From contig PLWZ01000037.1 of the NCBI GenBank assembly GCA_003151235.1, positions 1 to 64,000 on the forward strand: 64,000 bases of DNA, given 5' to 3'. Each line of letters opens with the position of its first letter. The first letter of the stretch is position 1. A model generated the notes under the pieces. It searched no databases, had not been told where the DNA came from, and saw only the letters and a program-made list of their open reading frames with translations. Position numbers and translations under genes: made by a program. The stretch comes from Acidimicrobiaceae bacterium. Its GTDB lineage: Bacteria > Actinomycetota > Acidimicrobiia > Acidimicrobiales > RAAP-2. Of the stretch, positions 29,239 through 52,790 are shown piece by piece.

Positions 29239-32200
29239 ATGCGCCGCCAACGAACCACCAGCACCCATCGCAACCACCCACGGCACAGCCAGATGCGCCG
29301 GCTCGACATCGGACGGATCGGAGCGGCAATTGCCGTCCTGGTCGGATCGACCTGCCTCGCTACCGCCGTTGTTGTCGCACCAGCGGGTCCGGCAGCCGCC
29401 GACGGGCCGGCGGCGTGCACCGTCGGCGGCCCGCCGTTCCCGTTCGCCGGATTCTGCGCGACGTACTCGGGCGACAACACCTGGTACGGCTCGTACGGGC
29501 CCGGCTTCCCGACCGATCAGGGTTGGGGCTTCTGCGCCGATCCCCCGGCCAGCGGCGGTGACTACCCGGCTCCGGCCTACGACTACGTCGCGTCGTCCGC
29601 CCCGGCGGGCGCGATTACGGGACAGGCGGGAGCCCTCGGCTTCGCGTTCAGTGAAGCCGAAGCGAACGGGTGGTGGGGCGGGTTGGCCGGCCAGTTCACC
29701 GCCGACCAGGCTGCAGTGGCCGGCAAGCTGCTCTACGACGCCGTCGTCTGGGCCAGCCCGGTCCCGGCCATGGACCCCGGTGTGCTCGCGGCCTATCAGG
29801 CCCTCGACGGTTGGTACGTGCAGGCGGTCGGGTCGACGGCGAGCCCGAACCTCACCGCGCAGCTCGTCGGCGGCGGGACCACCTTTACCGGTGAAGGGTC
29901 CTACCAGGTTCATGTCCAGTTCCCGGGCTCCGACAACGATGCGACCGGTCTGAACATCCAGCTGTCGGTCACCGGTGCGACATTGAACACTCCGACCGGC
30001 CCCACCTCGCTCACCCTCGCGACCGACGCGTCGGGCATGGCCGACTTCTCGATCTTCGAAGGATCGCCTGGCCCGGTCTCCGTGACGGTGTCGATCCCGG
30101 GTGGGCTGGGCCAGTTCGGCCTCGGGTTCCTGGCGCCGACCGTCGCCGAGCTCGGCGCCCAAGAACTGACCTCGTTTTCGGGGCCGGCCAACTTCGAGAT
30201 CTCTGAAGGGCTGACCGCGCTCCCGACGACCGGGACGGTGTCGATCGCGAAGGGCGGAGACGACGCGGCGTATTACCCCCTCGGCGGCGGGGTGTTCCAG
30301 ATCTCGAGCGGCTCGACAGTCGTGGCCACCTTGACCACGGGCGCCGACGGCACGTCGCCGGCTTCCGACGAACTCCCGGCGGGGAGCTATACCGCCCACG
30401 AGGAGACGGCGCCGCCCGGCTATTCGACCTCTCCGGATCAGTCGGTGGACGTGGTGGCAGGGACCAACACCGTCGTGTCGTTCACCGGCACCGCCGAGGA
30501 CCATGTGATCCCGTCTTCGGTCACGATCGACAAGACCGACGCCGAGACGGATGCGCCGCTGGCCGGGGCCGTCTTTGACGTCATGTACGACTCGGCCAAC
30601 AACGGGACGTTCGACGAGGACCTCGGATCCTGCACGACCACGGCGACCGGTTCGTGCTCCCCCGAAGGAAATGACGGTGCCGATGGCCTCCTGCCCGGCC
30701 GCTACCAGGTCACCGAAACGGGCGCGCCGACCGGATACGCGCTGCCGAGTCCTGCGTCTCAGGTCATCGACCTCCTGGCAGGCGAGTCCGGGGTGGTCTC
30801 GTTCGGTGACTCGCTCCTCGTCAGCACGGTCTTTCACAAGATGGCCAGCGGGAACGTCAACCCGGCCGAGCTCGTGCTGTCCGGAGCCGTGATCCAGGTC
30901 GACCAGGGAACACCCGGGGGGCGTCCGGTCGCCCAGTGTGCGACCGACAGTTCCGGAACCTGTGTCACCACGTCAAACCTCGTGTCCGGGACCCACTACT
31001 GCTGGGTCGAGCTCGCCGCTCCGAGGGGACTCGCCGGCGGCGCCAACGGGTGCTTCACCGCCGACAACGAGCAGGCCGACCAACCGATCACGGTCAGCGA
31101 CGCCGGCGAGTTCGTGGCCATCGAGGTGAAGAAGGTCGACGCGGCCAACACGGCGGTCGGCTTGCCAGGCGCGACGTTCGACCTCTACCGGGTCACCGGC
31201 GCCAGCATCAACAGCGCGATACCGCTCACCGGTGGCACCGTCACGTCGAACGAGTTGCTGGTGTCCACGACGACCACCGGAGGGGACGGACTGGGGACCT
31301 TCCCGCTCCAGTTGCCCGGCTACGCGTATTGCGCGGTGGAGGTGCAGGCCCCGGCCAACTACATCGGCGATCCGGCCCAGCAATGCACCGACGTGCTGTC
31401 GGGGACCACGACCGTCCCGGCGCCGGTGAGCACCCTCACCTTCGATGACACGGAGGCCACGGTGAACCTGTCGGTCTTCAAGTACAACTCACTCACGCCG
31501 TCGACCGGCATCCCGGGGGCCGTCTACGACCTCTACGTGCAGGGCGACCCACCGCCGAGCGGTGTCACGGGCACGCCGCCCGCCGACGTCGTCGCCGAAC
31601 CGGGCGACACCTGGTACGGGCGCGGCACGACCGGAGGAGACGGCCGACTCTCCTTCACTGTGCCGGCCGGTTACGGGTGGTGCGTGCTCGAGGTGAGCGC
31701 CCCGCCCGACTATGTCCTCGACCCCGGGCTCCACTGCTCGGCGGTTCTCACCACGTCGTCGGCTTCGGAGGAGACGACGATTGCCGTGCCCGAGACGCTC
31801 GCCACCGTGCACATCTCGGCGTACAAGTACAACTCCGAGACGCCCGACACGGTGATACCGGGCGCGACCTACGAACTGCTCACCAACGATGCCGAGCCTC
31901 CCGGCACTCCCGTCGGAGCGCCGACCAGTGCCGTCGTGCCGACCGGCGACCACTTCTGGGCCGAGGCCACGACCGACCAGAACGGCGTGCTCACCTTCGC
32001 GGTGCCGGCCGGCTACTCATGGTGCTTGCACGAGCTGATCGCCCCGGCGGCCTACCAGGCCGACCCCGGTTTCCACTGCACGGCCGTGCTCACCACCGAC
32101 ACGTCGGGCTCCGCCGCCACCATCGCGGTGCCCGAGGTCCCCTTGACCGGCGGGCTCGCGTTCACCGGCGCCCCGGTCCTATGGACGGGAGTGGTCGGCG

Positions 32201-32310
32201 GTGTGCTGGTCGTGGTCGGCGGCACGGTGCTCGCGATCGACCACCGCAGGCGCCGGGCCGGGCGGCCGGCTGCTCATTCGGGCTTCCGGGCCACCACGCA
32301 CAAGATGTAA
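29239..32310 (+). CDS. SpaA-repeat surface adhesin with LAFTG sortase signal
   Basis: 1023-residue exported protein. A signal peptide (hydrophobic core about residues 28-50, cleavage near AAADG) is followed by a Cys-containing N-terminal domain, and about six repeats of a SpaA/prealbumin-like fold (from about residues 325, 430, 535, 630, 740 and 855), each starting with a V-x-I/V-x-K strand and a G-A-x-F/Y-D/E segment. Most repeats have paired Cys and an acidic residue in the E-box position, so isopeptide bonds are possible. It ends with LAFTG (about 972), a membrane helix and an Arg cluster, a class E-type sortase signal. ATG 29293 is an alternative start. No sortase gene is in the window. 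The tail overlaps the next gene by 37 bases. Confidence 0.85.
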   Translation: MRRQRTTSTHRNHPRHSQMRRLDIGRIGAAIAVLVGSTCLATAVVVAPAGPAAADGPAACTVGGPPFPFAGFCATYSGDNTWYGSYGPGFPTDQGWGFCADPPASGGDYPAPAYDYVASSAPAGAITGQAGALGFAFSEAEANGWWGGLAGQFTADQAAVAGKLLYDAVVWASPVPAMDPGVLAAYQALDGWYVQAVGSTASPNLTAQLVGGGTTFTGEGSYQVHVQFPGSDNDATGLNIQLSVTGATLNTPTGPTSLTLATDASGMADFSIFEGSPGPVSVTVSIPGGLGQFGLGFLAPTVAELGAQELTSFSGPANFEISEGLTALPTTGTVSIAKGGDDAAYYPLGGGVFQISSGSTVVATLTTGADGTSPASDELPAGSYTAHEETAPPGYSTSPDQSVDVVAGTNTVVSFTGTAEDHVIPSSVTIDKTDAETDAPLAGAVFDVMYDSANNGTFDEDLGSCTTTATGSCSPEGNDGADGLLPGRYQVTETGAPTGYALPSPASQVIDLLAGESGVVSFGDSLLVSTVFHKMASGNVNPAELVLSGAVIQVDQGTPGGRPVAQCATDSSGTCVTTSNLVSGTHYCWVELAAPRGLAGGANGCFTADNEQADQPITVSDAGEFVAIEVKKVDAANTAVGLPGATFDLYRVTGASINSAIPLTGGTVTSNELLVSTTTTGGDGLGTFPLQLPGYAYCAVEVQAPANYIGDPAQQCTDVLSGTTTVPAPVSTLTFDDTEATVNLSVFKYNSLTPSTGIPGAVYDLYVQGDPPPSGVTGTPPADVVAEPGDTWYGRGTTGGDGRLSFTVPAGYGWCVLEVSAPPDYVLDPGLHCSAVLTTSSASEETTIAVPETLATVHISAYKYNSETPDTVIPGATYELLTNDAEPPGTPVGAPTSAVVPTGDHFWAEATTDQNGVLTFAVPAGYSWCLHELIAPAAYQADPGFHCTAVLTTDTSGSAATIAVPEVPLTGGLAFTGAPVLWTGVVGGVLVVVGGTVLAIDHRRRRAGRPAAHSGFRATTHKM

Positions 32311-33338: not shown

Positions 33339-34400
33339 ATGTCCTTGGCCGCGTCGATCCGACGCCGAACGGCGGCGGTGCTGCGGCGGATCCTCCCGTT
33401 CCGGGTTCGGGTGAGCACCCGGTCGCTCGTCCGACGGCTGGCTCGCCGGCCCGGTCCGGTGCTCGCGACCCCGTCGGACCTGCGGGCCAGCTATCGGCTC
33501 TTGTTGGGCCGAGAGCCCGATCGCCGGGGCGAGCTCGACTTCTTGAGCCTGATCGAGCTCGGCATGACGAGAGACGAGTTGGTCAGGCACTTCATGAGCT
33601 CTCCCGAGTACCGCCAGCGCCAGCTCGACGCCGGGCGATCCGGGGCTGCGCCGACCTCCGTCGTCATCGACGGCCTTATCTTCTATCTCGACCCGGCGGA
33701 TTTTGCGATCGGCCCGCACCTGTCTCGCAGCGGCAACTATGAGCCCGAGGTTCTCTCGGCGCTCCGCGGGCACCTCGCCCCGGGCGACACGTTCGTCGAC
33801 GTCGGCGCTTCCTTCGGCTATTTCTCGACGCAGATCGGCCGCCACCTCGGTCCGGGCGGGACCGTGATCGCATTCGAACCGGGGCCCCAGAACCAGTCGC
33901 TGCTCCTCCTCAATCTCCACGCCAACGACATCGGCGGGGCCGAGGTCCATCAGCTGGCGCTCAGCGACGAGGCGGGGCTCTTCGCCTACAGCCGATCGGG
34001 GGCCAACGGCGTGGTGTCCCGGTTCGGGGGCGACCCGCGAGAACTCTCCAACCACGACCTCGTCCGAGTGTCGACGCTGGACGCAGAACTGGCCGGCCGG
34101 CCGGTCAGCACGATCAAGATCGACGTGGAGGGGGCCGAGGGCCTGGTGCTGAAGGGCGCGTCGGCCACCCTGCGCTCGAGCATGCCCACCATCGTCTTCG
34201 AGTTCTCGCCGCCCGCGTTGGAGTCGGTGTCGAAGATGGGTGGACTCGAGGTGCTCGGCCTGTTGAACCGGCTCGGCTACTCGATCGACGTGGTCGAGGG
34301 TGTGGAGGCCCAGCCCGTCGCGAAATCGGGTGATGAGGTGATGGACCGCTACGAGGGTGCTCCCGAGGGCCACATAAATCTGCTGGCCTGGCCGGGTTAG
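33339..34400 (+). CDS. DUF4214 + FkbM-family methyltransferase
   Basis: 353 residues. A basic N-terminus precedes a DUF4214 domain (SYRLLLGREPDRRGELDFLSLIELG, FMSSPEYRQRQ). The C-terminal two thirds are an FkbM-type O-methyltransferase with VDVGASFGYFSTQIGR (SAM site), FEPGPQNQSLL and TIKIDVEGAEGLVLKG. FkbM enzymes methylate hydroxyls on sugars or polyketides. It is divergent from the other DUF4214 methyltransferase (85-base gap) and convergent with the anti-sigma gene (4-base overlap of the ends). Confidence 0.88.
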   Translation: MSLAASIRRRTAAVLRRILPFRVRVSTRSLVRRLARRPGPVLATPSDLRASYRLLLGREPDRRGELDFLSLIELGMTRDELVRHFMSSPEYRQRQLDAGRSGAAPTSVVIDGLIFYLDPADFAIGPHLSRSGNYEPEVLSALRGHLAPGDTFVDVGASFGYFSTQIGRHLGPGGTVIAFEPGPQNQSLLLLNLHANDIGGAEVHQLALSDEAGLFAYSRSGANGVVSRFGGDPRELSNHDLVRVSTLDAELAGRPVSTIKIDVEGAEGLVLKGASATLRSSMPTIVFEFSPPALESVSKMGGLEVLGLLNRLGYSIDVVEGVEAQPVAKSGDEVMDRYEGAPEGHINLLAWPG

Positions 34401-37155: not shown

Positions 37156-38574
37156 ATGTCCTCCCACCGTGAAGCGCCGGAGATCTCGAAGGACCCGGTT
37201 GCAGACAGCACGGACCTGTATGCGTTCGTCAGTCCCGACAACCCTGACACCGTCACGATCATCGCCAACTACGTGCCGTTGGAGAGCCCCGACGGAGGGC
37301 CCAACTTCTACGAGTTCGGTGACGACGTGTTGTACGCGATCAACATCGACAACAACGGCGACGGCAGGGCCGAAGTGTCGTACCAGTTCCGGTTCACCAA
37401 CACCGTCACGAACCAGGCCACCTTCTTGTACAACACGGGCCCGATCACGTCGCTGACGTCGTCGAGCTGGAACCGGCGCCAGCACTACAGCGTGACCCGC
37501 GTTGCACACGGCAGGTCCCAGGTGCTCGGCACGAACCTCGCCTGCCCGCCGTGCAACATCGGCCCGTTGTCCACGCCGAACTACCCGGCGCTGGCCCAGG
37601 CCGCCGTCCACTCCCTCTCCGGGAGCAGGCAGGTCTTCGCCGGGCAGCGAGCCGAGGGCTTCTTCGTCGACCTCGGATCGATCTTCGACCTCGCGAACCT
37701 GCGGCCCTTCGAGGCTGACCACGCGACCTTCGGTCTCGCCGACACCGGACTCGGGGCCATGGCCGCCGGCGTGAACTCGACGTCGGGCGTCAACGTGCAC
37801 TCGATCGCCCTCCAGGTGCCGAAGACCGACCTGGCCAAGGGTGGCGGGTCCGCCTCCGACGCCACCTCGGCCGCATCGGTGATCGGCGTGTGGACGACGG
37901 CCTCTCGCCAGAAGGCACGGGTGCTGAACGCCAAGGGCACCGAGGTCCAGTCGGGCCCGTGGGTCCAGGTCTCGAGGCTCGGGAATCCGCTCGTGAACGA
38001 GGTGGTCGTTCCGATGTCGGTGAAGGACTTCTGGAACGCCCAGGCTCCGGCCGGCGACAAACAGTTCACCGCGGCGGTGCTCAACCCCGAGCTCGCCCAG
38101 CTGCTGCCGGTCCTGTACCCGGGTGTGTTCCCGAACCTGGCCGCGTACAACAAGGCCGCCCCGCACCGGGCCGACCTCGTGGCCATCTTCCTGACGGGCA
38201 TCCCGACCGGGGTCGTCACGGGGTTCCAGAACTCCATGGGCACCACCCAAGCCGACCTGTTGCGTCTCAACATGGCCGTCCCCCCGACGACGTCGGGTGC
38301 GAGCAACATCGGCCTGATCGGCAACGACGCAGCCGGGTGGCCGAACGGCCGGCGGGTGTTCGACGACGTGGTCACGATCGCGCTGCGCGCGGTCGCTGGG
38401 GCCACGCTGCCGCTCGTCGACAAGAGCTTCACCCCGGACAAGGCCGCCGCAGCGGTCACAGACGGCCTGACATCGGGCCCGACGGACCTGACCGCCATGG
38501 GCACCCAGTCCTACCTGCCGGGCTTCCCCTATCTCGGGGTGCCGCACGGTGGGTTCGCCGCCGGGGCCGCCTGA
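37156..38574 (+). CDS. DUF4331 domain-containing protein
   Basis: 472-residue DUF4331 protein. It opens MSSHREAPEISKDPVADSTDLYAFVSPD, the usual start of the family with its conserved SSHREAP and DLYAF motifs, then EFGDDVLYAINIDNNGDG, a Ca-binding-like Asp/Asn cluster. Members are often secreted, but no signal peptide is seen here, and the export route is unclear. Function is unknown in the literature I can recall. It faces away from the ECF sigma cluster, with an ECF-type promoter in front and two terminators behind. Confidence 0.9.
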   Translation: MSSHREAPEISKDPVADSTDLYAFVSPDNPDTVTIIANYVPLESPDGGPNFYEFGDDVLYAINIDNNGDGRAEVSYQFRFTNTVTNQATFLYNTGPITSLTSSSWNRRQHYSVTRVAHGRSQVLGTNLACPPCNIGPLSTPNYPALAQAAVHSLSGSRQVFAGQRAEGFFVDLGSIFDLANLRPFEADHATFGLADTGLGAMAAGVNSTSGVNVHSIALQVPKTDLAKGGGSASDATSAASVIGVWTTASRQKARVLNAKGTEVQSGPWVQVSRLGNPLVNEVVVPMSVKDFWNAQAPAGDKQFTAAVLNPELAQLLPVLYPGVFPNLAAYNKAAPHRADLVAIFLTGIPTGVVTGFQNSMGTTQADLLRLNMAVPPTTSGASNIGLIGNDAAGWPNGRRVFDDVVTIALRAVAGATLPLVDKSFTPDKAAAAVTDGLTSGPTDLTAMGTQSYLPGFPYLGVPHGGFAAGAA

Positions 38575-42050: not shown

Positions 42051-42609
42051 GTGTGGCCGTGAATCGTGCGATTGACCGGACTGGTCAGGCAGAGATGGAC
42101 GTCAGCGGGCCGCGTCGATCTCTTTCTTGTCGAGACCGCACAGCTTGACCGTCGTTGCACGCGGTGCCCGCGTGCTTCGCCTGGTCTTGGCCTTGCATAG
42201 GGCGCTCTCCAATCGACCGATCAATCAGGTCTGAGCACCATATTCCGTCCGTGCCGCGCCGGGCCGTCGAAAGTGAAACTCCGGTGGAGAGACTCGAACC
42301 CTCGATTAGCGGATGACCCCAACCGCGGAATCGCCACACCACTGAATGAGGTGAGGTCATGCGGTGTTCGGAGCGCTTGCCACTGCATGTGAGCAGGTCG
42401 CCGGCCAATACTCCCACCGACATCCGGCCTTGCAGGCCGTCCGTGCCGCGATCGAGCTACGGATCCCGGGGCGAGAATGGAAACGCCGGCTCGCTGAATT
42501 CAACTCGGAAGCGAACTCTCGTGACGCCAAGGCTGTGCTCAGTTCTACGGTCGAGAGACGCAGGCGTCGGTCACCGACACCCGCAGAGCAGGGACTATGA
42601 GGAGGAAAG
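42051..42609. other. gene-poor stretch holding a broken tRNA-like copy
   Basis: No supported gene in 559 bases. It contains a broken copy of a tRNA 3' half (42279-42345). A 78-codon open frame (42364-42600) has no start signal and no recognisable family, and the remaining short frames look like chance. The region lies upstream of the tRNA-Asn gene and looks like the worn edge of a past integration or deletion. Confidence 0.5.
42279..42345 (-). pseudogene. broken tRNA copy similar to tRNA-Asn 3' half
   Basis: The minus strand has the T-arm and acceptor end of a tRNA (GAGGGTTCGAGTCTCTCC followed by ACCGGAG), 25 bases nearly identical to the same part of the tRNA-Asn gene 331 bases away (two mismatches), plus the shared AGCGG at the other end. 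The anticodon arm is damaged (an oversized loop) and no matching 5' acceptor strand exists. It cannot fold as a working tRNA. Confidence 0.65.
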
Positions 42610-42681
42610 CTCCGGGGGAGAGACTCGAACTCTCAACCTAGCGGTTAACAGCCGCTTGCTCTGCCGTTGAGCTACCCCGGA
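42610..42681 (-). tRNA. tRNA-Asn (GTT)
   Basis: Complete cloverleaf on the minus strand: acceptor TCCGGGG / CCCCGGA, D-arm GCTC...GAGC, anticodon stem GCGGC / ACCGC-type with loop CTGTTAA (anticodon GTT), T-arm GAGAG TTCGAGT CTCTC, discriminator G. CCA is not encoded. It is 92 bases upstream of the first glycosyltransferase gene, on the other strand. Confidence 0.93.
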
Positions 42682-42772
42682 ACGAGCGTCAAGAACGAAC
42701 GACGATAGCAGTCGACTCTGGTCCCGAGGTCGGCCGTATCCGCCCCGGCCAGCCTCGGTAGGCTCCCAATCC

Positions 42773-45529
42773 GTGGTGAAACCCGGCCCGCTTCGAATTG
42801 GTGCGTCACCGCCCACGAGCGCAATCCCGTTCTACTGCATCAACCTGGCGCACTCCGAGGAACGCCGTGAGCGGATGACGAGGCGGTTCGATGAGCTCGG
42901 ACTCCTCGGACAAGTGCAGTTCATCCGGGCCATCGAGAGCTCGTCTTCGTCGGTCGACCAGCACATGGCGCGAGCGGCCATCGACTGGGCACCGGATCGG
43001 CGGCGCTCAGAAATTGCGTGCCTGTTGAGCCATCTGCTTGCTCTGGACACCTTTCTCAAGGAGACCTCCCCGGCGACACCGTCGGCAATCATCTTCGAGG
43101 ACGACGTGCTGCTTCACCGCGAATGGCACGCGCAGCTCCACGCGCTCCTTGAGAATCTGCCCGAAGGCGCCCCCCTCTGCTCTCTCGGGTACGAAGTGGT
43201 CTCTTGGGATGGGTTCGACTGGGCCGGCAGGGACCCCGATCGGAAAAATCTGATGCTCATGAACCCCAAGCCGTTGTGGGGTGCTCATGCCTATTGGACC
43301 TCTCGCGAACACGCCCAGGAGGCACTCGAGCACTACGAAGAGATCTTCAACGACCCGCGCATCCTCTCGGAGTTCATCGTGAAGTGGCCGGGGGCATACG
43401 TCTCGTTTCCTCCGCTCGTCATCGAAGACGGCATGCCCTCGACGATCCGGACCGAGGGCGAGATGGGCGTGCACCGGATGATTCACCACGGCTGGGGGGT
43501 CGAGAACTACGGCTCGGGTAACCCGGACGATCACATGCTGAAGCGGCGAACGGACACCGATCAAACCGTCTGCCTGTGCATGATCGTCCGCAACGAGGCC
43601 CACGTCATCGGCCGCCTGGCCAAGTCGCTTGAGGGGCTCATCGACTGCTGGGTCATCTGCGACACGGGATCGACCGACGGGACGCCGGCGGCGGTCGAAT
43701 CAGCGTTTGGCGACCTGCCGGGAGAACTGTTCCACGACGAGTGGCGTGACTACGGGACGAACCGCACCCTGATGCTCGAACGGGCTCAGGGGAAGGCCGA
43801 CTACCTGTTGATCCTGGACGCCGACCAAACGGTTCGCGTCACGTGCCAGCTTGGCTCGCTCGATGCCGACGCGTACTCCCTGCTCGTCGACGAACCAACG
43901 GCACACTGGGTTCCGAGACTGGTTCGCTCGGGTCTCCCGTGGCGCTATGTCGGGGCGGCGCACGAGTACCTCACCTGCGACCGCCCGTATCGGACCGAAT
44001 TCCTCGACGGCCTCGTCGTGCAGCACCACGCGGACGGCGGCAATCGACCCGACAAGGCGGCACGCGAGCTCGAGCTGCTCGAGCGTGACCTCGCCCAAGA
44101 GCCCGACAACCCCCGGACGATCTTCTATCTGGCCCAGACGCATCGGGAGATCGGCAACGACGCCAAGGCCATCGAGCTCTATGCCCGGCGTGTCGAGCTG
44201 GGGGGATGGCCCGAAGAGGTCTTCTACTCGAAGTACTGGCACGCCGAGCTGATCAGCCGCCGCGACTGGGATCTCGGGGTCTCGCTGCTTTTGGATGCCT
44301 GGCAGTACCGGCCCAAGCGGGCCGAGCCGCTGTACGCGCTCGTCCAGGGCTTTCGGGCCCGGAACCAGTATCGGTTGGCCGAGATGTTCGGCGACCTCGG
44401 GATGCGGCTCGAGTTTCCCGACGACACGCTCTTCGTGCACCGCGAGCCGTACGACTGGGGCCTGGTGTTCGAGTGGTCGATCGCCGCCTACTGGACCCGG
44501 AATCTCAAGGGGGCGTTGGAGGGGAACGAATACCTGCTTGCTGCTCCGTCGGTGCCGCCGGAGGTCAGACGCTTCGCCGCGACGAACCGGGAACGCTGCC
44601 AGGTGGCGCTCGACCTGTACGAGAGCGATGACGGTCAGGAAGTCTCTCTCGAGGCGCTCTGGGTCCCGACGCTCGGTTCGCTGGTCGAGGGCACGAGGAT
44701 CGGCCAGATCGAACTGTCACTCGGAAGGTCGTGGGTTCTGAGTCAGCCCTCGATCATGAGCGAAGGCGACGGCTTCCGGCTTCTCGCCCGGGCCGTCAGC
44801 TCGACCGCCACCAAGGGCGCAAGCGACGACGAGGAGCCGTTCTTTGTCGACATCGAGCTCGATGCAGATCTCTCGGTCCGCTCCGCCACCGGGCTGGGCA
44901 ACGAACCGACCCCTGACGGTGCAGTGTCGGAAGGCTCCGATTTCGGCCGGCTGGTCGGCTTTGGCGGCGATCGATGGCTCGTGTTCGACGTCATCGATGC
45001 CGCACCGCCTCGATCAGGACGAACCGCCATCGCGCGGGTGGCCGCCGAGCAGTTCGTCGATCGTCAACTGCTCGAGAGCCCGGGCTCCGAGGGCGAGGAC
45101 CGAGGTTGGATCCCCGTGGTGCGCGATGACGACCTGCACTTCGTCACCAGTCTCTCTCCGACGATGGCGGTGCGGGGCCGACCCGGGTCAGGCCCGCTCA
45201 CCGTGGTGTCGACGAACAAGCCCTCCCGCAGCCTCGCCGGGGAACGAGGCAGCTCCCAGGGTGTGGCGGTCGACGGTGGGGTGCTCGCGGTCACCCGGGT
45301 GTCCTCGGTCGGGGGCACCTCCGAGCACCGGTTCGTGCTTCTGGGCAAGGACTTCGAGGTCCTGGCCACCAGTCCACGCTTCTGCTTCGAAAGCCCAGTG
45401 GGCGAGGTCTGCGTCGGCCTCGCCGTCCAGGGACCCGACCTGGTCATGAGCTTCGATCGCGGGGGTGCCGGTGCTCACGTGGCCCGTCTCCCCTACGAGG
45501 GCGTTCGGGCCCTTCTGTGGCCGGAATGA
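42773..45529 (+). CDS. modular glycosyltransferase: GT25 + GT2 + TPR + C-terminal domain
   Basis: 918 residues. First is a GT25 domain (about 20-225; FYCINLAHSEERRERMTRRF, EIACLLSHLLALDTF, the acidic motif FEDDV and WGAHAYWTS). A GT2 domain follows (about 262-420; LCMIVRNEAHVIGRLAKS, CDTGSTDGTP and the donor-site LILDADQ, DxD near residue 347). Then a TPR-like region begins (about 445; RTIFYLAQTHREIGNDAKAIELY), and finally about 280 residues of beta-rich C-terminal domain. GT25 enzymes add galactose or glucose to collagen and LPS; both active centres look intact here. The start is GTG 42773. It is the first of two tandem paralogs in the glycan-protein locus. Confidence 0.88.
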   Translation: MVKPGPLRIGASPPTSAIPFYCINLAHSEERRERMTRRFDELGLLGQVQFIRAIESSSSSVDQHMARAAIDWAPDRRRSEIACLLSHLLALDTFLKETSPATPSAIIFEDDVLLHREWHAQLHALLENLPEGAPLCSLGYEVVSWDGFDWAGRDPDRKNLMLMNPKPLWGAHAYWTSREHAQEALEHYEEIFNDPRILSEFIVKWPGAYVSFPPLVIEDGMPSTIRTEGEMGVHRMIHHGWGVENYGSGNPDDHMLKRRTDTDQTVCLCMIVRNEAHVIGRLAKSLEGLIDCWVICDTGSTDGTPAAVESAFGDLPGELFHDEWRDYGTNRTLMLERAQGKADYLLILDADQTVRVTCQLGSLDADAYSLLVDEPTAHWVPRLVRSGLPWRYVGAAHEYLTCDRPYRTEFLDGLVVQHHADGGNRPDKAARELELLERDLAQEPDNPRTIFYLAQTHREIGNDAKAIELYARRVELGGWPEEVFYSKYWHAELISRRDWDLGVSLLLDAWQYRPKRAEPLYALVQGFRARNQYRLAEMFGDLGMRLEFPDDTLFVHREPYDWGLVFEWSIAAYWTRNLKGALEGNEYLLAAPSVPPEVRRFAATNRERCQVALDLYESDDGQEVSLEALWVPTLGSLVEGTRIGQIELSLGRSWVLSQPSIMSEGDGFRLLARAVSSTATKGASDDEEPFFVDIELDADLSVRSATGLGNEPTPDGAVSEGSDFGRLVGFGGDRWLVFDVIDAAPPRSGRTAIARVAAEQFVDRQLLESPGSEGEDRGWIPVVRDDDLHFVTSLSPTMAVRGRPGSGPLTVVSTNKPSRSLAGERGSSQGVAVDGGVLAVTRVSSVGGTSEHRFVLLGKDFEVLATSPRFCFESPVGEVCVGLAVQGPDLVMSFDRGGAGAHVARLPYEGVRALLWPE

Positions 45530-45613
45530 CCGCGGGCGTTGCGACGCGTTGTCTCGCGCGCGAGGCCAGCATTCCAGGATCGGCCGAACGACCGACCCGA
45601 TGAGAGAGTCGGG

Positions 45614-48361
45614 ATGGCGCCAGTAAGCTCGCCCGCTGTGGACGGGCCGGCGTCGCGGGCAAGCGACCGAACGGCCCCCGAAGCGCAGATCCCGATCTAC
45701 TGCATCAACTTGGCGTCATCCCGAGACCGACGTCTCCGGATGACTCGGCGCTTCGAAGAGGTCGGGCTCCAATCGGTCCGGTTCATCCGGGCCATCGACC
45801 GTCGTTCGAAGGTCGTCGAGGATGACCTCGCGCAGACGAAGGCCGTGTCGCGTGATGACAAGGCACGGTCCGAGGTGGCGTGCTGGTTGAGCCACATTCG
45901 TGCGCTGCGTACGTTCTTGAGAGAGACACCGTCCACAACCGAATCGGCGATCATCTTCGAGGACGATGTGATGCTGCATCGTGAGTGGCACGAGCGGCTC
46001 GGAGCGGTCCTCGGCAACCTCCCCGAAGGTGCCCCGGTGTGTGCTCTCGGGTACAACGACGAGGACTGGGAGCGACCGCCAGAAACCTGGGAAGGCTTCG
46101 CGTGGGCGGGCGTAGATCCGGACCGTCGGGTCCTCATCCACTCCCTCCGTCGGCAATGGGGGGCGCACGCCTACTGGATAAGCCGATCGCACGCTCGGGC
46201 CGTACTGGACATCCTGAAGACGGACGGCGAGCGATTTGGCCGCTACCCCGAGAATTTCCTGAAGGTCGCCGGTTCCTTCGCGGCGTTCCCGGCGTTGGCG
46301 ATCCAGGACGGCAGCCCGTCGACCATTACTGGCGAACCCGCGAGGATTCTCTCGCACCGAATGATCAACTCGTCCTGGGGAGTCGAGAACTACCTCGCCG
46401 GGGACGGTGGGCACATGTTGGCCAAGCGCTCGGAGAGAGCGCCGTCGATCTGCCTGTGCGCGCTGGTTTGGAATGACGGTGAGCTGATCGATCGCATGGC
46501 CTCTTCGGTCGAGGGTCTGGTCGACAACTGGGTGATCTGCGACACCGGGTCCACCGACGGCACGCCGGAACGGGTGGCCAAGGCGTTCGCCGGCATCCCC
46601 GGACGGCTTTACGAGGACGCATGGCAGGACGACGGGACCAACCGCACGATGCTTCTCGAGCGCGCTCGTGGGGCGGCCGACTACCTACTAATCGTCGACG
46701 CCAGCCACTCGATCTCCCTTCGACAGCAGCTTGACCAGCTGGGAGCCGACGCCTACCTGCCGATCGCGGTGGAATCGCGGAGCGGTTGGACGCCGATGCT
46801 CGTGCGTGCCGATCTGCCGTGGCAAGCCATCGGAGCAATCAATGCCGATCTGGCCTGCGACCGTCCATATCGGATCAACGAGCTGCCCCAGATGGTGGTC
46901 CGCCGCGATGAGAGCGGCGACCATCGGCGCGCCGAGCTCGACCGGAAGCTCGAACTGGCCACGACCCTCCTGGTCGACCAGCCCGCCGATCGACCGGTGT
47001 CCTTCTCGACTGCAGAGCTCACCCGTGAGCTGGGCCACGGCAAGCGGGCAATCGACCTCTACGTTCGGCGGCTCGAACTCGGCGGTGCCCCTGCCGAGCT
47101 CTGGGAGCCCATGTATCGGCACGCCACGCTCGTAAGCGAGCGGGACTGGGACCGGGGCGTCAATCTTCTTCTCGAGACCTGGGAATTCCTTCCGTCGCGC
47201 CCCGAGCCGCTGTGGTCCCTCGCGCACGGGTATCGACTGCGCGAGGAGTTCGCTCTCGCCAAGGTCTTCGCAGCGAAGGGGTTGGCGGTCCCGTTCCCCG
47301 AGACGATGCCACATCGTTTTCGCGACATCTACGACTGGGGCCTCAGGTGGGAGTGGTCGCTGGCCGCATACGAGACGGGGGATCCGAAGGGCGCGGCAAG
47401 GATGTCCGGGAGTCTCCTGAACGATCCGACCATCCCCGACGATGTTCTCGCCGAGATGAAGAGCCACTATTGGCGATCCCGCGACTTTGCGAGGGCCAGG
47501 GGTTGGCAGCCCGGAGACACGCCCGATGCGTCGAGCCTGTTTGAAGTCCTTCCCGATGCCGAGATCGTCGAGTTCCGCCTCGATGTCGATCGAGGCATGG
47601 TGCAGACAGATCCGTCCGTGACCGGCGACGGCGAGCACCTCCGGGCATTGATGCGGGTGTCGGAGACCGCGAATTCCTGGGCCATTACCTACTTTGAGGC
47701 CGAACTAGCGTCCGACCTGAGCGTCGTGCGTGCTCGCCCGATCGCAGACAACCGGGGCGCACGTGCAGCCCCCATGGCCGCATTCCATCGCTGTTATCTG
47801 GTGTGGTCGGGATCCCAGTTCCTTGTGGTGGCACACGGGTCAGGATCACCCGGCGGTTCGGCCCCGGTGGTCGTGATGCCCTTGTCCGACGGCGGACTCG
47901 GACCGTCGCAGGTCCTCGTGGCCGACGGCACGGGGAGCCCGACTCGGTGGGCGCCATTTGCGGTCGACGGCGAGCTGCGGTTCCTTTCGAGCTTCGACCC
48001 GGTCACGGTCCTGTCCGTGGACGATCAAACGGGCGACATCACCTCGACGCGGACGGCCAGCAGGTTTCATCGGTTGGGTGAGGAGAGATCCGCGTCCCCG
48101 GGGGCTCAGGTCGCCGGCGGCACCTTGTTTGTCACACGGCGGGTCCTTCCGGGCGAGGTGGTGGAGCACCGCTTGGTGCTGATCGACGACGATTGCGAGG
48201 TCGCCGGCTCGAGCGCCAGCTTCTTCTTCTTCAATCCGACCAGGGAGCTTTGCTCGGGGCTCGCCACCCTCGGCGACGACGTGGTGTTCAGCGTGGGGAC
48301 CGAACTCCAGGGTTCGTTCTTGGTCAGGCTGCCCTACTCGGCGGTGGCCGCACTGCTCTAG
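45614..48361 (+). CDS. modular glycosyltransferase paralog: GT25 + damaged GT2 + TPR + C-terminal domain
   Basis: 915 residues from ATG 45614, sharing the whole layout of the preceding gene: GT25 (IYCINLASSRDRRLRMTRRF, FEDDVML, WGAHAYWIS), GT2 from about residue 278 (LCALVWNDGELIDRMASS, CDTGSTDGTP), a helical repeat region and a beta-rich C-terminus ending SFLVRLPYSAVAALL. In the GT2 domain the DxD place reads IVDASHS, so donor binding is probably lost, while GT25 keeps EDD. The pair probably arose by tandem duplication and has since split roles. GTG 45638 is an alternative start. Confidence 0.86.
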   Translation: MAPVSSPAVDGPASRASDRTAPEAQIPIYCINLASSRDRRLRMTRRFEEVGLQSVRFIRAIDRRSKVVEDDLAQTKAVSRDDKARSEVACWLSHIRALRTFLRETPSTTESAIIFEDDVMLHREWHERLGAVLGNLPEGAPVCALGYNDEDWERPPETWEGFAWAGVDPDRRVLIHSLRRQWGAHAYWISRSHARAVLDILKTDGERFGRYPENFLKVAGSFAAFPALAIQDGSPSTITGEPARILSHRMINSSWGVENYLAGDGGHMLAKRSERAPSICLCALVWNDGELIDRMASSVEGLVDNWVICDTGSTDGTPERVAKAFAGIPGRLYEDAWQDDGTNRTMLLERARGAADYLLIVDASHSISLRQQLDQLGADAYLPIAVESRSGWTPMLVRADLPWQAIGAINADLACDRPYRINELPQMVVRRDESGDHRRAELDRKLELATTLLVDQPADRPVSFSTAELTRELGHGKRAIDLYVRRLELGGAPAELWEPMYRHATLVSERDWDRGVNLLLETWEFLPSRPEPLWSLAHGYRLREEFALAKVFAAKGLAVPFPETMPHRFRDIYDWGLRWEWSLAAYETGDPKGAARMSGSLLNDPTIPDDVLAEMKSHYWRSRDFARARGWQPGDTPDASSLFEVLPDAEIVEFRLDVDRGMVQTDPSVTGDGEHLRALMRVSETANSWAITYFEAELASDLSVVRARPIADNRGARAAPMAAFHRCYLVWSGSQFLVVAHGSGSPGGSAPVVVMPLSDGGLGPSQVLVADGTGSPTRWAPFAVDGELRFLSSFDPVTVLSVDDQTGDITSTRTASRFHRLGEERSASPGAQVAGGTLFVTRRVLPGEVVEHRLVLIDDDCEVAGSSASFFFFNPTRELCSGLATLGDDVVFSVGTELQGSFLVRLPYSAVAALL

Positions 48362-48370
48362 GTGCGGCGG

Positions 48371-48386
48371 GGCTCGCGTGCGAGCC
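48371..48386. terminator. short hairpin between convergent genes
   Basis: GGCTCG-CGTG-CGAGCC, a 6-base-pair GC-rich stem, right after the stop of the second glycosyltransferase gene and just before the 3' end of the collagen-like gene on the other strand. No T-run follows, so termination strength is uncertain. Confidence 0.4.
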
Positions 48387-48391
48387 GGAAC

Positions 48392-48922
<531 letters not shown>

Positions 48923-49049
48923 TCACGGTCCCCCACCCCGGCGGGAGGGCGTGGCCCGGGTGGTCGAGGCGCGGCCGACCCGGCTAGAAAGGCAAGCTTC
49001 ATCGAGAGTGTTCCGGTGCCAGGACCGGCCCGCGCCATGGAAGGGTGAA

Positions 49050-50084
49050 ATGGCCGAAAGCAGCGCGAACAGCGGCGGGGGTCTGGCCTTGTTCGGGCTG
49101 ACAACCGACGGCTCGCTCCAGCACGCCCGCCAACTTCCCGGCCTGGGCTGGTCCGAGTGGTGGACGGTAGGGCCCCAGGTCCGTTCCACACCTGCGGCCG
49201 CCCAGAACGCCGAAGGGCGGATGGAGGTGTTCGCGGTCGGACCGGACGGCTCGCTCGGTCACCTCTTCGAGACCCAACCGGGCCACCTGTCGGACTGGGA
49301 GGACCTCGGGCACCCCGCCCGAGGCAACCCATTTGTCTGCATGGACCAGGGCGGAAACCTCCAGGTCTTCGCGACAGACCTGAGCGGCCAGCTGGGCCGG
49401 ATCCGGCAAGTCGAACCCGGCGGCCCGGGCTGGTCGGACTGGGAAAGCTACGGCTACCCGGTGCGGAGCCGGCCGACGGCCTGCCTGAACGCCGATGGGC
49501 GACTCGAGGTGTTCGCGGCCGGTGTCGACGGGCGGCTTGGGCACGTATGGGAATGGGATCCGGGAGGGAGGGTTGGCTGGTCCGACTGGGGGGAGTTCTC
49601 TCACCTCCTTCGCGGCAACCCGGTGGTGCACCAGAACGAGGACGGGCGGCTCGAGGTGTTCGGCTGCGCGGGCAACGGTCGACTCGGGCACGTCTGGCAA
49701 CTCGAGGCGGGCGGGTCGGCCGGCTGGTCGAACTGGTCGGACTTTGGGCACCTCATCCGATCCGCTCCATCGGTCATTCGCAATGCCGACGGCCGATTGG
49801 AGATCTTCGCCTGCGGCGCGTCCGGCGCCCTCGGCCACGTCTGGCAGCAGGACGAGGACAGTGATTTCGGATGGTCGGACTGGGGGGACTTCGAGGTGGC
49901 GATCCGAGGAAACCCGAGTGCCTGCCACAACACCCACGGCCGGCTCGAAGTGTTCGCGCTCGGTCTCGATGGACGCATCGGCCACGTCTGGCAGCTCGAG
50001 CCGGGTTCGGAGAACGGATGGTCGGAGTGGGCCGATCTGGGGGCGTCGGGGTCGGGAGGCCTGACGGTGTGCCGAACATCGTGA
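49050..50084 (+). CDS. seven-bladed PLL-type beta-propeller lectin
   Basis: 344 residues from ATG 49050 with ribosome-binding site GGAAGGG. Almost the whole protein consists of seven repeats of about 46-49 residues with the pattern (N)-x-D-G-R-L-E-V-F-x-x-G-x-D-G-x-L-G-H-V-W-Q followed by G-W-S-x-W. This is the repeat of the PLL lectins (Photorhabdus) and the fungal PVL lectin, which bind fucose, GlcNAc or methylated sugars between blades. There is no signal peptide. The next gene begins with the same seven repeats fused to an oxidoreductase. Confidence 0.85.
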   Translation: MAESSANSGGGLALFGLTTDGSLQHARQLPGLGWSEWWTVGPQVRSTPAAAQNAEGRMEVFAVGPDGSLGHLFETQPGHLSDWEDLGHPARGNPFVCMDQGGNLQVFATDLSGQLGRIRQVEPGGPGWSDWESYGYPVRSRPTACLNADGRLEVFAAGVDGRLGHVWEWDPGGRVGWSDWGEFSHLLRGNPVVHQNEDGRLEVFGCAGNGRLGHVWQLEAGGSAGWSNWSDFGHLIRSAPSVIRNADGRLEIFACGASGALGHVWQQDEDSDFGWSDWGDFEVAIRGNPSACHNTHGRLEVFALGLDGRIGHVWQLEPGSENGWSEWADLGASGSGGLTVCRTS

Positions 50085-50314
50085 CCGCGGCAGCGTGGGT
50101 GAGGCGGTCCCCGACCTGCAGCGGCAGCCATCGCGCTCAGCGAGGGTCCTGATCAACGAACCGAGCCGTGCAGCTGGTCTCGTTGACCTCGGGTCGCACC
50201 TCGCGGGGTCGGGTTCGGCGGCGAGGTAGAAATGGGATGCCGCTGCGCCGGTCGGATCCTTCGGCTGCCGAACGGACACCAACAAGTGGCTGAGTCGACG
50301 GACGGAAGAGCGCG

Positions 50315-52771
50315 ATGCCGATAGGCAGTCTGAGCACCGGGCGAGGCCTGGCTGTGTTCGCGGTCGGGCCCGACGGTTCTCTCGCGAATCGGTGCCTCAT
50401 TCCCGACAGCGGTTGGTCCGAGTGGTCGGTCGTGTGCCCCCAGGTCCGTGGAGCGCCGGCGGCCTTCCAGAACGCGGACGGCCGCGTCGAGGTGTTCGCC
50501 GCCGGTGCTGACGGGCGCCTCGGCCACGCATGGGAGATCGACGCTGGTCGTTGGTCGGACTGGGAGGGTTCGGGTCCCCCGGTGCTCGGTGACCCCTGCA
50601 TGTTCATCGACCAATCCGGCCGCCTCCAGGTGTTCGCCGCCGGTGCCGACGGCCAGCTCGGACGCATGCGCCAACTCGAGCCCGGAGGGCTCACGGGATG
50701 GTCGGAATGGGAGACCTCGGGGCATCTGATCCGGGGCCGGCCGACCGCCTTCCAGAACTTCGACGGCCGCCTGGAGGTCTTCGCCGCGGGAATCGACGGC
50801 CGGCTTGGTCACATCTGGGAGTGGGAGCCAGGCGGGCCGCTCGGGTGGGCCGAGTGGGATGACTTTCACTACATCGTCCGCGGGAACCCGGTGGCGTTCC
50901 AGAACGACGACGGCCGCCTGGAGGTCTTCGCCTGCAACGCTCAAGGCCGTCTCGGGCACGTGTGGCAGCTGGACCCGGGCGGTCACACGGGTTGGTCCGA
51001 GTGGGGAGACTTCGGGTACCTCATCCGTGGCGATCCGGCGGTGGGTCAGAACCCCGACGGTCGTCTCGAGGTCTTCGGTTGTGGCAGCGGGGGCCGTCTC
51101 GGGCACGTGTGGAGGGATCACGGCGGGCGTGCCGCAGGTTGGTCCGAGTGGGGAGACTTCGGGTACACGATCGCGGAGACACCCACCGTCTTCCACAACG
51201 CCGACGGTCGGCTCGACGTGTTCGTGGTCCGCTTAGATGGACGGCTCGGGCACGTCTGGCAGCAGGGCCCCGGTGCCGCGCATCCGTGGTCCGATTGGGC
51301 GGACCTCGGGGCCGGCTGGCGCCTGCCGGCCGTCTGCCGAGCCAGCGTCTCTGGCCGGGCCGGCAGCGAGCAGCTGGCCGCGGTGGTACAGCGCGCCCGG
51401 GCCGCCTGGCCGGTCGGCACCGCCACGACCCTCACCGCCGACGTCTGCGTTGTCGGCGGTGGTCCGGCAGGCATCACGCTGAGCGACGCGTTGACCCGGG
51501 CGGGAGCGAGCGTCCTACTCCTCGAAAGCGGCGAGTGGGACTACAACCCGGCTGCACAGGAGCTGAACGACGCGGACGCCGATGGCCCGATCATCAAGGA
51601 CTACCGGAACTATCTCCGGGCCGGTCGCCAGCGTCAGATCCAAGGCGCTGCGCTGCGATGGGGCCGAGGACTCTGCATGCCGTTGCGCACACTCGACTTC
51701 GAGGACCGGGCGTGGGTACCCCATAGCGGGTGGCCGCTCGTCCAGGCGGACCTGGCTCCCTTCGAGAAGCTCGCTGCGGCCACCTTCGGCTTCGATGAGT
51801 TCGGTCCCCCGGCGACGGAGAGCGAGCTGGTCCACCTCTCGTATCACTATCCGTCGAACCCCCTGCTCTTCCGCGCGCTCTTCCTCCAGCTGCTGACGAG
51901 ACCCAATTTCGCGACCGAACTTGGCGCAACGGTGGTCGAACTGAAGGTGGGCGGCGATCGGGTGACCGGAGTTCGCGTGGCTCGAGCCGGAGGTGACGAA
52001 CTCCACGTCGAGGCAGACACGGTCGTGTTGGCGGGCGGCGCCGTCGAGAACACCCGCCTCCTGCTGATGCACGAGCGCAGCGTGCCGTCGGGCGGCAACG
52101 CCGGTCGATTCTTCATGGAGCATCCCCACGTGCTCGCCGGATCCGTGGAGCTGGCCGACCCGACGCCGTTGCGGGCGTGCCTCGCCGACGGAGCCGTGCG
52201 AGAGGTGTTGGCCCTACCCGAGGAAGTCCAGCGGACCGAACACCTGCTGAACGTCAGCGTGCAGCTGAGTCCGCACGGTTCGAGCGGTGCAACCACGCCG
52301 TTGACATGCCAGCTCTATGCGCGGGCCGAACAGGCGCCGAACCCGGAGAGCAGGGTCGTCCTCGGCGATCAACTCGATCGGCTCGGTTGTCCCCGCCCTC
52401 GCCTCGAGTGGCGCCTGAGCGAGCAGGACTGGATCAGCGTCGTGCGAACGTCCGAGTTGGTCGCCGCGGCCCTCGAGGAGCGTTACGGGGCCCGCACCGA
52501 GCTCCTCGTACGAACCGACGAGCCGTGGCCGTGGCCGCCGGCCGGGCCGGCCGACTCGTCGAATGCGACGTGGGGCAACCACCATCTCGGGACCACCCGG
52601 ATGGCGGTGCGCCCGGAAGACGGAGTGGTGGATCCTGACTGCCGAGTCCACGGCACCGAGAATCTCTTTGTGGCCGGAAGCTCGGTCTTCCCGACCGGCG
52701 GCTGCGCCAATCCGACCTTCACCATCGTCACCCTGGCTCACCGGTTGGCCAGCCACCTGGCCTCCCCCTAG
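50315..52771 (+). CDS. PLL-type propeller lectin fused to GMC-family FAD oxidoreductase
   Basis: 818 residues. Residues about 10-345 repeat the seven-bladed lectin of the previous gene (DGRLEVFAAG...GHVWQ...GWSEWG). From about 375 a GMC oxidoreductase follows: VCVVGGGPAGITLSDALTRAG (FAD), LRWGRGLCMPL, VLAGGAVENTRLLLM and the C-terminal GNHHLGTTRM...NLFVAGSSVFPTGG and NPTFTIVTLAHRL, which bear the His/Asn catalytic pair. Relatives oxidise sugars or other alcohols. The fusion implies that oxidation is aimed at a bound glycan. No signal peptide is seen. It is convergent with rpoD. Confidence 0.85.
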   Translation: MPIGSLSTGRGLAVFAVGPDGSLANRCLIPDSGWSEWSVVCPQVRGAPAAFQNADGRVEVFAAGADGRLGHAWEIDAGRWSDWEGSGPPVLGDPCMFIDQSGRLQVFAAGADGQLGRMRQLEPGGLTGWSEWETSGHLIRGRPTAFQNFDGRLEVFAAGIDGRLGHIWEWEPGGPLGWAEWDDFHYIVRGNPVAFQNDDGRLEVFACNAQGRLGHVWQLDPGGHTGWSEWGDFGYLIRGDPAVGQNPDGRLEVFGCGSGGRLGHVWRDHGGRAAGWSEWGDFGYTIAETPTVFHNADGRLDVFVVRLDGRLGHVWQQGPGAAHPWSDWADLGAGWRLPAVCRASVSGRAGSEQLAAVVQRARAAWPVGTATTLTADVCVVGGGPAGITLSDALTRAGASVLLLESGEWDYNPAAQELNDADADGPIIKDYRNYLRAGRQRQIQGAALRWGRGLCMPLRTLDFEDRAWVPHSGWPLVQADLAPFEKLAAATFGFDEFGPPATESELVHLSYHYPSNPLLFRALFLQLLTRPNFATELGATVVELKVGGDRVTGVRVARAGGDELHVEADTVVLAGGAVENTRLLLMHERSVPSGGNAGRFFMEHPHVLAGSVELADPTPLRACLADGAVREVLALPEEVQRTEHLLNVSVQLSPHGSSGATTPLTCQLYARAEQAPNPESRVVLGDQLDRLGCPRPRLEWRLSEQDWISVVRTSELVAAALEERYGARTELLVRTDEPWPWPPAGPADSSNATWGNHHLGTTRMAVRPEDGVVDPDCRVHGTENLFVAGSSVFPTGGCANPTFTIVTLAHRLASHLASP

Positions 52772-52790
52772 GGGTGCGCGAGCTCCTGGC

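Follow-up and report, generated by a model that had tools for sequence, protein, structure and literature searches.

Sugar oxidoreductases that are tethered by a glycan-binding module are known from cellobiose dehydrogenase with a CBM and from the copper enzyme galactose oxidase with CBM32. These enzymes would work in a similar way to the lectin-enzyme fusion described here, although their binding modules are unrelated to that of the fusion. The propeller at its N-terminus belongs with the PLL family (Photorhabdus PLL, PLL2-5 and PHL), with which it shares seven W-motif blades, ~35-40% identity, a target TM of ~0.9 and the lack of a signal peptide; it differs in being joined to an enzyme. PLL lectins are made without signal peptides, and two of them were found extracellularly (PMC12203525). 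In PLL3, Trp251 and Trp265 together with Ser246 form the hydrophobic site, and Trp111 the polar site (PMC12203525). The enzyme part has the fold (Z 35-38) and the His/Asn pair of FAD-dependent fructose dehydrogenase and of BcGDH, in which His105 of the flavin loop binds FAD covalently and which possesses a hitchhiker subunit (PMC6719666). The GMC fold, the His/Asn pair and probably sugar chemistry are also common to bacterial pyranose 2-oxidase and C-glycoside oxidases, from which the fusion differs by an identity of only ~22% and by its flavin loop. With regard to the neighbouring genes, the closest precedent is SgtA of C. difficile, which is encoded next to bclA3 and puts GlcNAc on Thr of the collagen-like region (PMC7157674).

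The fusion is encoded on the forward strand (50315-52771) of the 64,000-nucleotide stretch of DNA that was analysed as a whole (the window). Its open reading frame comprises 818 amino acids without interruption and starts with ATG, preceded by a GGAAG Shine-Dalgarno-like stretch. The first-pass annotation had described it as a PLL-type propeller fused to a GMC oxidoreductase, and both domains were indeed found in frame in one continuous ORF. Residues 1-345 (50315..51349, forward strand) are recognised by PF03984 (DUF346; E 3e-11) and by the beta-propeller lectin model of NCBIfam (E 5e-22), contain seven W-motifs and match the Photorhabdus PLL lectins in the PDB with an E of 7e-73, a value inflated by the repeat structure. 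The AlphaFold2 model of the whole fusion (mean pLDDT 75.6) comprises a seven-bladed propeller, a low-confidence linker and a GMC fold, and a Foldseek search with the propeller matched PLL2/PLL5 at a target TM of 0.89-0.92. The end of the propeller at residue 345 stands as first annotated, but the GMC part starts near residue 357 and not at 375. Between them lie the linker residues 346-356 (51350..51382, forward strand), within a stretch (333-370) modelled at a pLDDT below 50.

Directly upstream, a free PLL-type lectin of 344 amino acids (49050..50084, forward strand) is 58% identical to the fused propeller over its full length, in agreement with the earlier observation that one repeats the other. 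The divergence of the two lectins, with dN of 0.31, dS of 1.14 and dN/dS of ~0.27 (NG86), bears the mark of purifying selection. An ordinary signal peptide was found on neither of them, as had been annotated and as is the case for PLL lectins (PMC12203525). A phage or viral origin of the lectin was considered and yielded no match.

In each blade, the residues of the PLL3 sites fall on the xLW, WxxW and HxW positions. The xLW (H-site) Trp is absent from 14 of 14 blades of the fused and the free lectin and mostly replaced by Gly; in contrast to the PLL family, six blades have Gly at this position, and the first blade has either Ala or Gln. One of the two stacking Trp is gone per blade, and the paired Trp of the PLL hydrophobic (fucose/O-methyl sugar) sites were not found. 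The HxW (P-site stacking) Trp is retained in five of seven blades of the fusion and in four of seven of the free lectin. Gly at the xLW Trp position is rare: counted with the same pattern, it occurs in 4 of ~326 blades from 79 relatives in the phylum, a count that is blurred by loop-length shifts. We infer from these alignments that PLL-like fucose/O-methyl sites were lost and that polar-type sites possibly survive. Since the H-site Trp is missing in all blades, PLL-type fucose binding is doubtful. The earlier suggestion that oxidation is targeted to a lectin-bound glycan fits the neighbourhood, with its glycosyltransferases and collagen-like protein.

The GMC oxidoreductase domain covers residues 357-818 (51383..52771 including the stop codon, forward strand). 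PF05199 matches over all 139 positions (E 5e-25; 89 bits versus a cut-off of 24.6), but PF00732 (GMC_oxred_N) remains sub-threshold at 14.8 bits versus a cut-off of 23. PF00732 is weak or absent in some GMC relatives too, and the model of the GMC part alone (pTM 0.88) aligns across the whole GMC fold. The FAD-binding GxGxxG (residues 381-386; 51455..51472), His756-His757 (52580..52585) and Asn799 (52709..52711), all on the forward strand, are conserved with 24 stand-alone relatives and correspond to the predicted FAD site and HH/N centre, which upholds the description of the GMC part as complete. Of 90 conserved GMC positions the fusion has retained 82, a number inside the range of the 24 relatives in a leave-one-out comparison. 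In the flavin-proximal loop (residues 442-449; 51638..51661, forward strand), QGAALRW replaces GGTxNHW. The exchange of Gly443 for Gln is unique to the fusion (Gly in 24/24 relatives), and Arg occupies the position of the covalent-FAD His. This altered loop may indicate that catalysis is changed or impaired.

Sugar chemistry is likely because the nearest solved structures are the catalytic subunits of fructose dehydrogenase (Z 38) and BcGDH (Z 35), followed by C-glycoside and pyranose oxidases. Based on these model comparisons, the GMC part probably acts on sugars, in line with the chemistry first proposed for it. It differs from fructose dehydrogenase and BcGDH in lacking the covalent-FAD His and the Fe-S (3Fe-4S) Cys cluster and in its smaller size, and neither a small subunit nor a heme subunit is encoded in its cassette.

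The free lectin stops (TGA) at the exact point where the fused lectin enters the linker. Codon 357 of the fusion is GTG (V357) and coincides with the start codon of the stand-alone GMC relatives (MFVDAR versus VVQRAR); these begin with MxxDAR...AD(V/L)xIxGxGxAG, to which VVQRAR...ADVCVVGGGPAG corresponds in the fusion. Because GTG357 occupies the start position of the relatives, the fusion appears to have arisen from separate lectin and GMC genes by stop loss, and the ~11 codons in between look like the former spacer. A Shine-Dalgarno-like stretch was not found upstream of GTG357, whereas both lectin starts have GGAAG.

An assembly or sequencing artefact that joined two genes would be in keeping with a draft genome of 93 contigs and an architecture seen only once. 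However, the frame is open throughout, GC3 is even along the ORF including the join (0.79-0.87), a single substitution would create a stop in only five codons near the join, and synteny with congeners is kept on either side of the cluster. An erroneous frame-shift or stop at the join is therefore disfavoured and a sequencing error there unlikely, and we regard an artefact as extremely improbable. The fusion is real and probably functional; its novelty is modest, and the cassette around it is of interest.

No second PLL-GMC fusion was found in ~1,990 genome searches and on plasmids. The search covered 172 genomes of the source family, samples of the order, class and phylum, a lectin-rich family of the phylum with 277 genomes and 14 named GMC loci, as well as plasmids (0 of 377 records covering 80%); the genome collections behind it are samples. 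Several long open frames, among them those in the genomes G295 and G606, were rejected as fusion candidates, as their N-terminal frame was non-coding and contained no lectin. No description of a PLL-GMC protein was found in the literature searched, a search that mostly did not extend to subscription papers. Within the source family, no other genome yielded a DUF346 match. Elsewhere in the phylum, PLL-type propellers are fused with domains of the astacin, M23 peptidase, GH43, beta-lactamase-like and DUF3152 types. Appending them to enzymes is therefore a known habit, and GMC is a new partner.

These results bear on the possibility that the fusion arose by chance read-through of tandem lectin and GMC genes, with the GMC acting on a small-molecule substrate of its own and the propeller being a passenger or a solubility or docking module. 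The coincidence of the lectin stop and of GTG357 with the borders of the ~11-codon spacer, together with the occurrence in one genome, would be explained well in this way. Nevertheless, GTG357 has no ribosome-binding stretch of its own, both parts look selected and joins of PLL propellers to enzymes are common in the phylum, so that we consider mere read-through rather unlikely, though worth keeping in view.

Stand-alone GMC relatives adjoin a small Tat-signal protein of 137-172 residues in several genomes (L040:3701-4126, L043:9445-9939, L045:7635-8144, L048:9505-9993, L051:9485-10000, L115:6215-6631 and L116:5989-6399). The one scanned (L115) gave no Pfam match, nor did a similar Tat protein (L119:5761-6174). 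These proteins resemble the hitchhiker subunit of BcGDH in gene arrangement and are possibly an unnamed hitchhiker-subunit family. The presence of such partners suggests that the enzyme group works outside the cytoplasm and is probably exported as a rule. A Tat hitchhiker gene was not found next to the fusion; the only nearby Tat protein is the collagen-like one described below. A pattern search detected no collagen-like genes near the GMC relatives. Other neighbours of GMC genes are a CotH kinase-like gene directly 3' of the GMC gene in a Wenzhouxiangella MAG (L047:9443-12820) and, in two genomes of one family, a secreted glucosaminidase-domain protein directly downstream (L115:8151-9653 and L116:7932-9362). 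The source genome itself (G000) contains GMC fragments at two contig ends (C8:16-825, L147, and C66:69327-69740, L146), which together span most of a GMC and are possibly one gene split between contigs.

The fusion gene forms the end of a species-specific insertion of ~10.06 kb (42717..52775) between tRNA-Asn (42609..42681, reverse strand), which marks its left edge, and rpoD. In a close congener (rpoD 96% and a ppdk-like gene 98.7% identical), tRNA-Asn follows 16 bases after rpoD, and the cluster is absent from the rpoD loci of this and four further congeners (two of these on short contigs). A lack of conservation in relatives, which the first-pass annotation had itself listed among the refuting outcomes, was thus observed: the fusion occurs only once, and congeners lack the entire cluster. 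In addition to both lectins, the insertion encodes two glycosyltransferases on the forward strand, one with GT25, GT2 and TPR parts (42773..45529) and one, 41% identical to it, with a GT25 domain, a weak GT2-like region and a C-terminal region (45614..48361). A Tat-signal collagen-like protein of 155 amino acids with Gly-x-Thr repeats is divergently encoded (48392..48859, reverse strand) and is the probable glycan acceptor. Outside the insertion, the window contains a 1023-aa protein with four SpaA prealbumin-like stretches (29239-32310) near an FkbM methyltransferase (33339-34400), and a DUF4331 protein (37156-38574) that is conserved in a congener (84%).

A GT2/GT25-type glycosyltransferase beside a Tat collagen-like or Thr-rich gene was detected at five loci, which are spread over four genomes of the family (window 42773-48859; L144:10094-13781; L158, L159 and L160). 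On contig C87 of the same genome, a second full-length glycosyltransferase homologue adjoins a second Tat protein, which is Thr-rich without clear triplets and shows 44% identity over 81 residues to the collagen-like protein. Three further genomes (G071, G038 and G059) have a GT2-TPR homologue next to Tat-signal proteins that carry collagen repeats; two of these proteins have a match to the cell-wall-binding CWB2. This recurrence disfavours chance. As in the cassette, the GT2-type transferase gene sgtA adjoins a collagen-like gene with x-Thr triplets (PMC7157674); the cassette differs by its combined GT25 and GT2 parts, its Tat-exported acceptor, the lectins and the GMC. Together, the recurrent pairing and the SgtA precedent indicate that the product of the cassette is probably a collagen-like surface protein in glycosylated form, the glycan of which is plausibly recognised by the lectins on the insertion.

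The explanation that we favour, with slightly less than even confidence, is that the fusion is an FAD-dependent sugar oxidoreductase that is tethered to glycans and has as its targets the glycoproteins produced by the cassette, the collagen glycan among them. More confidence than in this full explanation is due if the claim is narrowed to a GMC that acts on sugars and is linked to a propeller that binds glycans. The propeller would bind glycan weakly at many sites and, via the flexible ~35-residue linker, hold the GMC over sugar hydroxyls, where it would take hydride from a sugar C-OH using the His757/Asn799 pair and non-covalent FAD. The likeliest target would be the glycan put by the GT25/GT2 enzymes on Thr of the Tat-exported collagen-like protein, and the free lectin would recognise this glycan too. 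The gene itself may have formed when the stop that separated a lectin gene from the GMC gene behind it was lost, and would have come with the 10-kb cassette acquired at the tRNA-Asn/rpoD site. The only link of the GMC to the collagen glycan is the neighbourhood, and how the fusion would meet an exported glycan is hard to explain because there is no Tat partner in the cassette and no signal peptide.

Two other readings place the action elsewhere. The protein could be a released lectin-oxidase for foreign glycans that oxidises polysaccharides of other cells or the environment or makes H2O2; PLL lectins do occur extracellularly without signal peptides (PMC12203525), and PLL-type modules of relatives sit on peptidases and glycosidases. 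We consider this unlikely, as no signal is present, no secretion system was seen in the examined part of the window and the cassette content points to self-made glycoproteins. Alternatively, the glycan could be matured inside the cell, with the propeller docking to the glycosyltransferases or the nascent glycoprotein and the GMC oxidising the sugar before Tat export. This would fit the lack of signal peptides on both lectins, the side-by-side position of enzyme and acceptor genes and the fact that the Tat route exports proteins already folded and modified; nevertheless, it is given little credence.

Lysyl oxidase cross-links animal collagen, and it may be speculated, at a level of confidence hardly greater, that the cassette provides a sugar-based counterpart for the oxidation of glyco-collagen, in which the surface matrix would be cross-linked through aldehydes or keto sugars generated by the lectin-tethered GMC.

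The recurrent linkage of glycosyltransferases and collagen-like proteins is the sturdier result, and the singleton fusion is mainly a lead. If the favoured explanation is true, the fusion would represent a novel pairing of domains in the form of a flavin sugar oxidoreductase guided by a lectin, beside a glycosyltransferase/collagen module that recurs in the family. If it acts on the collagen-like glycoprotein, this would point to a bacterial oxidative maturation of glycosylated collagen-like surface proteins.
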